DNA of 36,993 nt, taken from assembly GCA_013697655.1 (NCBI GenBank), contig JACCWK010000092.1:1-36993 (forward strand), given 5' to 3'. Of the stretch, positions 4,494-7,469 are shown in pieces. Position 1 is the stretch's first letter; each line of letters begins with the position of its first letter. This DNA is from Nitrosospira sp. GTDB lineage: Bacteria; Pseudomonadota; Gammaproteobacteria; Burkholderiales; Nitrosomonadaceae. Below the pieces are notes generated by a model, which worked only from the letters and a program-made list of their open reading frames with translations, did not search any database and was not told the DNA's origin. The position numbers were made by a program, and so were the translations under genes.

Positions 4494-7469
4494 TTACAGC
4501 CGTTGTTCAACCCACCCCGCCACACTCTCCAACGCCGTAGGCAGACTATCGGGCTGGTTGCCGCCCGCCTGAGCCATGTCGGCGCGCCCGCCACCCTTGC
4601 CGCCAACCTGCAAGGCAACAAAATTGACCAGCTCGCCTGCCTTCACCTTCGCAGTCAGATCAGCGCTAACACCCGCGATCAGTTTGACCCTTCCCGCTTC
4701 TACCGCGCCTAGCACAACGACACAGGATGTAAATTTATCCTTGAGCTTGTCCAGCGTTTCGCGCAGCGTCCTGGAATCCGCATCTTCAAGACAGACCGCC
4801 AATACTTTCGCGCCTTTCACCTCCCGAACCTGCCGGGCGAGATCGTCGCCTTGCAAGCCGGCAAGCTTTGATTTCATGCGTGCCAGTTCTTTTTCCAGTT
4901 GTTTCACGTTATCGAGGATTTGCATAATGCATGTGGCGACTTCCTGCGGCTGCACCTTGACCGTCCCCGCCACTTGCTGCAATTGCAATTCCTGTTGCTG
5001 GATATGAGCCAACGCGCCCTCGCCCGTCACCGCTTCCACGCGCCGGACCCCCGCAGCTACCCCGCTCTCGGCAACGATCTTGAACAACCCGATGTCGCCC
5101 GTGCGCTTAACATGCGTACCGCCGCATAATTCACGCGAAGAACCAATGTTCAACACACGTACTTCGTCACCATATTTTTCGCCGAACAACATCATGGCCT
5201 CTGTTTTTTTTGCATCCGCTATGGCCATCATTCGCACTTCGGTCGCGGCATTGGTCAGAATTTCGGCATTCACCAATACTTCCACCTTGCGAATTTCCGC
5301 ATCCGTCATAGGCTGGTTGTGCGCGAAGTCAAAGCGGGTTTTATCGGCGTCGACCAATGAGCCTTTTTGCTGCACATGGGCGCCCAATACTTCGCGCAAC
5401 GCCTTGTGCATCAGGTGAGTGACTGAATGATTGCGCTCAGTGCGCGCCCGGACTTTTGGATTGACCTTTGCCAGCACCTTGTCGCCGGTAACCAGCCGCC
5501 CGCTGCGCAGCAGCCCTTTGTGACCGAACACGTCCGATTGAATTTTTTGCGTATCGGATACCGCGAAGGTGCCGTTGGCGGCCAGCAGTTCGCCGCAATC
5601 GCCCACTTGCCCGCCGGATTCCGCATAAAACGGCGTCTGATCGAGTACGATCACCGCTTCATCGCCCGCCTCGATAAAATCCACGCGGCTGCCTTGCCGA
5701 TAGATTGCGAGAATCCGGCCTTCAAACTGCAAGTTCTCGTAGCCGTGAAATTGCGTCGAGGGTCCTCTGTAGGCAAGCCCATCCTGCATGGCAAATTTAC
5801 TCGTTGCCCTGGCCCGTTCGCGCTGACGCTCCATGGCTTGCTCGAACCCCGTCTGGTCGATGATGATACCCCGTTCGCGCGCAATATCGGCGGTGAGGTC
5901 TAATGGGAAGCCGAAAGTATCATAGAGACGAAATATCGTTTCGCCATCCAGTACCCTGAAGCTGTCGAGCTCTCGTTCATTAACAACGGTCACTTCCCCT
6001 TGGAAATTATCTTGTTTGGTCGAGATAATTGTGGACAGCTTATTTCTTACCATTCCGCTGTCATTATCAGCTTCAACTACCACAACCTTAAAAGTAACAA
6101 TATCAAAAAATGGATCAGTTTCTTTTGATTTGATAAGCCAATGCAGATCAGCACGAATACGTTTTAGAGCCTGATCTAGGCCATCCAATGATTTTATAAA
6201 ACGGTAAACTATTCCATTCTCTCCATCAGGGTCAGACTCATGCCCATCAAATCTAATCGTTGAGGGATAGAGCAAAAATCTATCACCAAAAGATTTATCA
6301 GTTTCCGTTAATGATCTGTGCGAAAACAGATATCTCCGCAGAATTTGATGCCAATGAAGCTCCCGCTCCAGCAGCTGCATGCCATTCTCCAGCGTTTCGG
6401 CGAAACGCTCTTCCTCCTGCCTCAATATTGCCGCCACGCGGAATTTGGCTTCGACTAACTCTGGATAGGCTTGCCGCATCGCTCTCGCCAGATCTTCCGC
6501 CAACAGAAAAAAAAATGGCTTGTTTTGCCCCAGTTTGTAGCCATGGCGAATCGCGCGGCGAATGATACGGCGAAGCACGTATCCGCGTCCCTCGTTACCG
6601 GGAATCACGCCATCAATGATGAGGAAAGAACAGGCGCGAATGTGATCGGCGATTACCTTGAGAGAGTCGCTGGATAGATCAGTCGTATTCGTAGCCCGCG
6701 CTGCCGCCCTGATCAAGTCCTGAAACAAATCGATTTCATAATTGCTGTGAACCTGCTGCATAACCGCAGAGATGCGTTCCAGCCCCATGCCGGTATCCAC
6801 TGATGGCTTGGGCAATGGATGCAATGTGCCAGCGCTGTCCCGATTGTATTGCATGAAAACCAGGTTCCAGATTTCCACATAGCGATCGCCGTCAGCCTCC
6901 GGTGTGCCCGGCGGGCCACCTGCAATCTCCGGACCGTGGTCATAAAAAATCTCGGAACAAGGACCGCAGGGACCGGTATCCCCCATCTGCCAGAAGTTGT
7001 CCATGGTGGCGATACGTGTTAACCGTAAGGGGGCGATGCCAACCTCGTTGAGCCAGATGTCGGCGGCTTCGTCATCCTCGGCATACACTGTGACCCATAA
7101 TTTCTCTTGCGGAATCTTCAGCGTAACCGTGAGAAATTCCCATGCGAATTTGATGGCGTTGCGCTTGAAATAATCGCCGAAGCTGAAATTGCCCAGCATC
7201 TCGAAGAAGGTGTGATGCCGGGCGGTATAGCCGACATTTTCCAGATCGTTGTGCTTTCCGCCCGCGCGCACACAACGTTGCGAGCTCGCTGCGCGCACAT
7301 AGGGCCGCTTATCCTGGCCGAGAAATATATCCTTGAATTGCACCATGCCCGCATTGGTGAACAACAGCGTGGGATCGTTGGCGGGAACGAGGGAGCTCGA
7401 CGCCACGACCGTATGGCCGTGCAACTCAAAGAATTCAAGAAATTGTTGTCTTATTTCGCTGCTTTTCAT
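4494..7469 (-). CDS. alaS: Alanine-tRNA ligase with a 130-residue internal insertion
   Basis: Charges tRNA-Ala with alanine and removes mischarged Ser or Gly. In order: the class II catalytic core (residues 1-250, with the motif [13 protein letters not shown] at 90-102 and MGLERI at about 228), the tRNA-recognition region, the editing domain with zinc-site residues HSVTH (681-685) and CGGTH (782-786), and the C-terminal C-Ala domain ending in a Gly-rich [15 protein letters not shown] stretch. At 991 residues it is about 115-130 longer than usual. The excess is one block, residues 372-501, in the tRNA-recognition region between LLEREL and the conserved [16 protein letters not shown]. The frame is intact across the block, so the gene is probably expressed. 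The ATG at 7469 gives the canonical start [14 protein letters not shown]. Confidence 0.97.
5967..6356 (-). other. AT-rich in-frame insertion within alaS
   Basis: Encodes residues 372-501 of the alaS product. The host codons Glu-Arg-Glu-Leu occur just before the block (6357-6368) and again at its far end (5967-5978); the two 12-bp stretches match at 9 of 12 bases and are 390 bp apart, exactly 130 codons. Removing the block gives [16 protein letters not shown], which lines up with E. coli LLDEEL-AKLSGDT-LDGET. By hand count, 6001-6300 is 36% GC, against 62% in 6361-6420 and 62% in 5641-5700. The peptide is mixed helix and strand with many charged residues. I do not recognise a family, and it shows no intein signatures. 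Confidence 0.85.

Follow-up and report, generated by a model that had tools for sequence, protein, structure and literature searches.

The alanyl-tRNA synthetase (AlaRS) of a Nitrosospira sp., an ammonia-oxidising bacterium, contains a 130-residue block that reads as a real, coded protein domain inside the enzyme, and comparison with relatives showed either no domain or different ones at the identical AlaRS site. Trees and identity profiles show that one kind of insert (type A) moved between species and two genera by recombination, carrying along from tens to roughly a hundred codons of adjacent alaS. The DNA analyzed, called the window hereafter, is a stretch of 36,993 nucleotides.

The inserted block in alaS

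The alaS gene lies on the minus strand (4494..7469) and encodes a protein of 991 residues, against 862 to 869 in those empty members of the genus whose alaS was read. The initial annotation had attributed this excess to a single in-frame block, and the comparison bears it out: residues 372 to 501, or 130 codons (5967..6356, minus strand), replace the linker that joins MQLLE to RVLDGE. The stretch running from ...ENG to FRLYDT comprises 149 residues in the window and 20 to 25 in the closest empty relatives. On balance about 128 in-frame codons are gained, where relatives have a short linker joining the two elements responsible for reading the G3:U70 pair of tRNA-Ala.

The remainder of AlaRS is complete by Pfam and NCBIfam models. 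The protein matches TIGR00344 at 995.5 bits (cut-off 457), as well as PF01411, tRNA_SAD and DHHA1, which correspond to the catalytic, editing and C-terminal domains. It keeps the motifs with the Asn and the Asp that read G3:U70 and what we take to be its editing motifs (30 residues in all). Asn292 (6594..6596, minus strand), upstream of the insert, is the counterpart of E. coli N303, a match made by the motif PGNEGRGY at residue 290 without alignment to E. coli. Asp517 (5919..5921, minus strand), the counterpart of E. coli D400, belongs to LYDTFGFP at residue 515 and sits 16 residues past the block end. The two readers are thus 225 residues apart in the window AlaRS, rather than 97. In E. coli, N303 and D400 read G3:U70 of tRNA-Ala according to a passage of PMC10036535, and the Tyr-Asp region that holds the D400 reader is also treated in an excerpt of PMC6451123.

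The block is AT-rich, with a GC content by codon position of 0.52/0.33/0.30 versus 0.62/0.40/0.65 in the rest of alaS. The AT-richness noted earlier is confirmed, and the earlier view of acquired DNA is supported as probable. The frame of the block is open, a property kept by 0 of 20,000 mononucleotide shuffles, and each of the other five frames contains 4 to 21 stops; an essential gene was left open, as had been proposed. No PF01411 gene other than the alaS with the block was found in the genome (93% complete, 258 contigs), so this gene presumably encodes the working enzyme. The block itself occurs once in that genome.

Elsewhere in the window, a 9-base unit repeated five times at the recA 3' end (8143-8187) encodes a Ser-Gln-rich tail (15 residues). 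A transposase-like gene, of the IS630 type by eye, adjoins recA (9427-10462) and is split into two overlapping frames (9427-9906 and 9758-10462). A 102-base tandem repeat in 2.7 copies (10599-10873) lies inside the gene 10481-11896, by eye a trypsin-like protease with TPR-like repeats. The region 22601-36397 contains, by eye, gyrB, dnaN, dnaA, yidC, mnmE, mnmG, parA and parB, so alaS is probably near the replication origin.

Edges of the block and search for mobile or splicing elements

The codons for EREL at both edges of the block agree at 9 of 12 bases, which had been read as a short duplication. In exact register the EREL pair alone, among 857 in-frame pairs, reaches such agreement. Within 36 nt of points 390 bp apart, however, 12-mers agreeing at 9 or more bases were observed at 106 of 164 other places in alaS, and in view of this chance-level agreement a target-site duplication was rejected. 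The left EREL belongs to the native helix, and the right one aligns with the final E-L-x-x-F/Y-R of type A inserts.

A self-splicing or regulatory RNA, also suggested at first, is not supported: the composition of the block is coding-like, and comparison of positions 5700-6600 with Rfam gave no match at E-values up to 1. A transposable or palindromic in-frame element does not fit a block present in a single copy; a scan of 5900-6420 showed no direct repeats, and its one 14-nt inverted pair (86%) lies outside the block, in alaS coding sequence. An intein or intron-borne homing element was rejected on the lack of an Rfam match and of intein families among the Pfam or NCBIfam matches. Since no splicing element was found, the domain probably stays in the protein.

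Distribution of inserts in Nitrosomonadaceae

We searched 125 genomes of the family, of which 116 gave a readable match at the site. Domain-sized inserts of 96 to 139 residues were observed in 13 of these 116. Carriers are distributed patchily over three genera: 4 of 23 genomes in g1, the genus of the window (G000, G001, G015, G021), 4 of 8 in g2 (G026, G032, G145, G147) and 5 of 6 in g4 (G025, G031, G061, G062, G064), with none among the 79 genomes of g3. We infer that g1 is Nitrosospira and g3 Nitrosomonas; locus L078 is from a Nitrosomonadaceae MAG and L080 from a Nitrosovibrio MAG. We group the inserts by sequence into seven types, namely A (G021, G015, G001, G145), B (G032, G147), C (G026), D (G025), E (G031, G061, G064), F (G062) and G, the window's own. 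The exact window block was found in one genome only. The relatives searched are empty or hold other blocks, so the block is not common to all close relatives. Two further observations were made in this set. G029 (L044, g2) has a 47-residue glycine-rich linker at the AlaRS insert site, and G035 has two alaS genes (L046, L047), both without insert, and may be a mixed bin.

Exchange of inserts together with flanking alaS

Trees were built from 32 AlaRS sequences, separately for the core (columns 1-290 and 640-991) and for the flanks (84 columns, with the insert left out). In the core tree the type A carriers are found in three places and in two genera, and grouping them as one clade is rejected, at a cost of 261 log units (p-AU 2.7e-57). 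In the flank tree the four type A carriers form one clade (100/99). Insert presence needs at least 8 gain or loss changes on the core tree. Among the sequences outside type A, the nearest by path to its flank clade is a Methylophilaceae sequence, in a tree of few columns that designates no sure donor. The six g4 rows lie on one side of a branch (99/96).

The same pattern is visible in pairs of close sequences. G021 and the empty G012 are separated by a distance of 0.031 in the core and 0.415 in the flanks; their protein segments are 90-99% identical in six of ten, 65, 61 and 52% identical beside the insert and 83% in the next one. As a control, four empty-empty pairs with a core distance below 0.04 differ by 0.00-0.05 in the flanks. 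In the other equally close pair of an empty and a carrier, G032-G035a, the flank distance is 0.134. Type A flanks are not uniform, since G015 and G021 differ there by 0.293 at a core distance of 0.042. At the nucleotide level, G145 matches G035a and G032, both of its genus, at 92-97% as far as the segment at codon 291 and at 42-43% at codon 311; the identity drops just past codon 301 and is back to 95% from about codon 541. Residues 741-850 of the G145 AlaRS form a second divergent tract, far from the insert, which indicates that alaS recombines elsewhere too.

The window insert sits in native flanks. These are at a distance of 0.146 from G012 and G004 at a core distance of 0.09, and empty pairs show flank distances of 0.09-0.16 at core distances of 0.08-0.12. 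The window flanks being as close to empties as empty pairs are among themselves, the insert would have come without long flanks, or the flanks were replaced later. The new kind of in-frame mobile segment imagined in the initial annotation thus survives in part: type A insert alleles did move between species and genera, but with flanking alaS, as in homologous recombination, and no second copy or direct repeats at the edges were found.

Composition and constraint of the inserts

The GC content of the insert is lower than that of the rest of alaS in all 13 carriers, and GC3 is lower in 12 of 13. We estimated dN/dS for nine insert pairs, none of which includes the window insert; the five unsaturated pairs come from three types and are not independent. 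Their insert dN/dS values are 0.37 (G032-G147), 0.51, 0.22 and 0.26 (three type E pairs) and 0.26 (G015-G001), which shows those inserts to be protein under constraint. Elsewhere in the gene, the same pairs have values of 0.04-0.07 upstream and 0.06-0.21 far downstream. In the other four pairs the insert dS is above 2 or infinite, and dN/dS is below 1 in all 7 pairs with finite dS.

Insert dS was also compared with that of the surrounding gene. For G015-G001 it is 0.61, versus 1.1-1.75 or saturation in the gene, and for G032-G147 it is 0.15, versus 0.43-0.57; these values suggest that both pairs of inserts are younger than the divergence of their genes. No such gap was observed for G031-G064 (0.17 in the insert, 0.18-0.33 in the gene). 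The relation is reversed for G021-G015, with an insert dS of 3.0 versus about 0.5 in long parts of the gene, as expected if one insert was replaced.

Identity of the inserted domains

Insert types were compared using HMMER profiles with shuffle controls. There is a clear relation between types A and B (E 3e-7), as there is among D, E and F. A relation between A and E is supported both ways (best E 1e-5): with profile A on three E rows, 0, 0 and 3 of 200 shuffles scored as well, and with profile E on four A rows, 0, 0, 0 and 4 of 200. By themselves, D and F do not match profile A (107 and 34 of 200 shuffles as good), nor does B match profile E (86 and 103 of 200). Comparison of the two insert groups by hhalign gave an E-value of 0.048 and a probability of 1.1%, and profile comparisons were not significant. 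The window insert matches profile A at 9.9 bits with 0 of 200 shuffles as good, in a match confined to its last 57 residues; after removal of the last 13 residues, 30 of 500 shuffles were as good with profile A and 67 of 500 with profile AB. In these HMMER tests no relation to the profiles was found for type C (G026), L079, G434, G282 and the Neisseria-type inserts. The best result for such outliers is that of L058 with profile EF (E 0.0025), a single comparison with no shuffle control.

An alignment of 12 inserts, type C not included, revealed an F-D-G motif with the F in 12 of 12 rows and the D in at least 90%. In the window insert, the D is Asp408 by hand count (6246..6248, minus strand). 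In the strand after FDG, the places expected for D...(E/Q)xK hold E in type A, Q in types E and F, and K in types D and F, a pattern that we take to be that of PD-(D/E)XK nucleases. By eye, the D of the triad is present in 11 of 12 inserts, the E/Q in 8 and the K in 2; the triad is complete (D...QxK) in G062 only, and the window insert holds just the D.

We predicted the structure of the L078 insert from its single sequence (pLDDT 46.8) and submitted the model to Foldseek. Of the best 50 of 384 matches (E up to 10), 47 belong to viral cap-snatching endonucleases, to the L proteins that contain them or to tRNA splicing endonucleases; many are entries of few proteins, and among the matches listed the best E-value is 0.033, none is below 0.001 and TM-scores do not exceed 0.40. 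The model of the window block alone (pLDDT 44.8) is not usable, and its Foldseek matches, mainly kinesins (best E 0.14), are meaningless. Motif and L078 model together, weak as this evidence is, suggest that a PD-(D/E)XK (restriction-endonuclease-like) fold with a decayed active site is likely in several Nitrosomonadaceae types: likely for D to F, plausible for A and open for the window's own type.

The window insert has no Pfam, NCBIfam or PADLOC family, in line with the unknown inserted domain first suggested. Seven other inserts were submitted to Pfam, five to NCBIfam and six to PADLOC, and profile A1 and 12 inserts were also submitted to Pfam; one further Pfam set held eight inserts, the window's not among them. 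No match under E 0.0038 was found in Pfam for the window insert and the others, none under E 0.06 in NCBIfam for six inserts, and none under E 0.16 among PDB sequences. The PADLOC hints were limited to the G025 insert, with three families of which REase_II scored best (E 0.00078), and to the G031 insert, with PDC-M02B (E 0.0034). Profile A1 detected no convincing free-standing relative, whether in the 125 genomes of the family (E to 0.1), in 369 of the class (E to 0.001) or in 399 of the order (E to 0.01). There were 8 weak places outside alaS in the family genomes and seven in the order genomes; four loci of the former were inspected by eye, and three look like response regulators with GGDEF-type output and one like a substrate-binding transport protein. 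Viral contigs and phages yielded no free-standing relative, and plasmids none save one insignificant match (40 residues, E 0.1).

The same AlaRS site beyond the family

The site was matched in 386 of the 399 order genomes. We re-searched 38 genomes, comprising 17 of the 18 listed with a split match outside the family (G225 was left out), eight with weaker matches and 13 without a match; eight loci were unreadable by pattern. Among these 38, inserts of at least 95 residues were observed in G282, G434 and at least five genomes of g47, which is Neisseria by its named relatives; G912 (g47), for example, shares its insert with the named L121.

In g47 the site is split in 17 of 46 genomes, with frames of 969-1033 residues; 28 have one unsplit match and one has no match. 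All 17 inserts were read, L121 serving as a repeat. Most belong to one family, L187, L188 and L193 look quite different, and none is convincingly related to the Nitrosomonadaceae profiles. At 167 residues, the L188 (G900) insert contains a hydrophobic stretch rich in glycine and alanine and differs from the genus's other inserts. Flanks were compared here by identity; L054 and L057 were unreadable. Over the 34 residues from just before FKLYDT, four carriers are 88-97% identical among themselves, carriers are 76-85% identical to two empties, and the empties agree with one another at 85%; no clear pattern emerges from the 20 residues upstream. These identities are signs of linked flanks in g47 too, weaker than in Nitrosomonadaceae. 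The g47 domains, not detectably related but at the same site, may thus behave alike, which favours some site property over a nuclease drive without deciding the matter.

Discussion

We propose that a permissive AlaRS linker, between the parts that hold the Asn and the Asp, might serve as a hypervariable docking site for accessory domains that are exchanged horizontally. The domain would act as a surface module of the mature, unspliced enzyme and lie close to the acceptor stem, a location suggested by its neighbours, which read G3:U70. Turnover of the alleles might be driven by changing AlaRS antagonists (inhibitors, toxins or phage factors) rather than by a fixed catalytic task, which is the weakest step of the proposal; antagonists are favoured because the inserts are diverse, constrained and replaced. 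Taken as a whole, this docking-site explanation leaves us evenly divided. The turnover may be due to antagonists, a homing-like nuclease or tolerance; antagonists are our favourite, and nothing links the exchange to them. A broader statement, that AlaRS of several proteobacterial genera has a recombinational swap site where entire, mutually unrelated domains are exchanged like alleles by an arms race or a homing-like drive without splicing, making it a hypervariable locus within an essential translation enzyme, is more tentative.

The inserts may instead be tolerated cargo, that is, a linker that accepts DNA, recombination that shuffles the result, and a domain with no function. Linkers of 38-50 residues in 9 of the 38 re-searched order genomes are compatible with such tolerance, as are insert dN/dS values above those of the upstream gene and mostly above those of the downstream gene. 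Against it stand the values below 1 in all pairs with finite dS and the domain-sized, open frames of all 13 inserts, and we consider this reading rather unlikely.

A selfish PD-(D/E)XK endonuclease that entered in frame, spread by cutting empty alleles, was copied with its flanks and is now mostly dead would account for patchy, AT-rich inserts at one site with flanks carried along. It would also account for a motif decay that differs by type, G062 still having D...QxK. Such an origin appears improbable given that no splicing element was found, that the triad is complete by eye in 1 of 12 inserts, that no convincing free-standing relative was detected, and that a second genus has inserts there which are not detectably related and show a weaker sign of linked downstream flanks, an observation that favours the site over a nuclease.

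Vertical inheritance of an old lineage-specific domain with many losses is possible within g4, where types D, E and F are mutually related and the six rows fall on one side of a branch. It is contradicted for type A, whose carriers are one clade in the flanks and not in the core, and the G015-G001 inserts are closer than the rest of their genes; as a general explanation we hold it to be very improbable. An assembly or sequencing artefact, conceivable for an exact block found in one draft genome of 258 contigs, can practically be dismissed in view of the open frame, the coding-like composition and the domain-sized inserts at the site in 12 other family genomes, including the one-contig genome G021.

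The docking-site explanation can be compared with known systems. I-Ssp6803I is a PD-(D/E)XK homing endonuclease. Intron endonucleases are an established case of homing in which flanks are co-converted (PMC3943268). The AlaRS inserts are similar in being possibly small restriction-fold domains, patchy at one site of a conserved gene, with flanks carried. They differ in that no intron or intein was found, that the insert seems to stay in the protein and that the active site is mostly decayed. The L078-type insert may share a restriction-endonuclease-like fold with tRNA splicing and viral cap-snatching endonucleases; the scores are not significant, however, most inserts are without the catalytic set, and the context is different.

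The BEAN and HABAS domains are lineage-specific insertional domains of bacterial RNA polymerase whose distribution follows the Tree of Life, according to the abstract of PMC11515920. They are likewise embedded in a universal enzyme, lineage-varying and polyphyletic. Unlike what that abstract describes for them, the presence and the type of AlaRS inserts do not follow the gene tree, and exchange between genera took place for type A. The lineage indels of Spirochaetes AlaRS, as given in an extract of PMC3726837, are small (2-4 residues), clade-specific and located elsewhere in the protein. No report of domain-sized AlaRS inserts was found in the literature searched, which is no proof that none exists.

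AlaRS is the aminoacyl-tRNA synthetase that keeps its prototype structure throughout biology, in the words of one part of PMC10036535. In the genomes compared here, the tRNA-reading region of AlaRS accepts entire domains at a single position, and at least one kind is swapped between related species by recombination. If this swapping is driven by antagonists, AlaRS would be a battlefield of which we found no report; if it is driven by a nuclease, it would represent homing without splicing.
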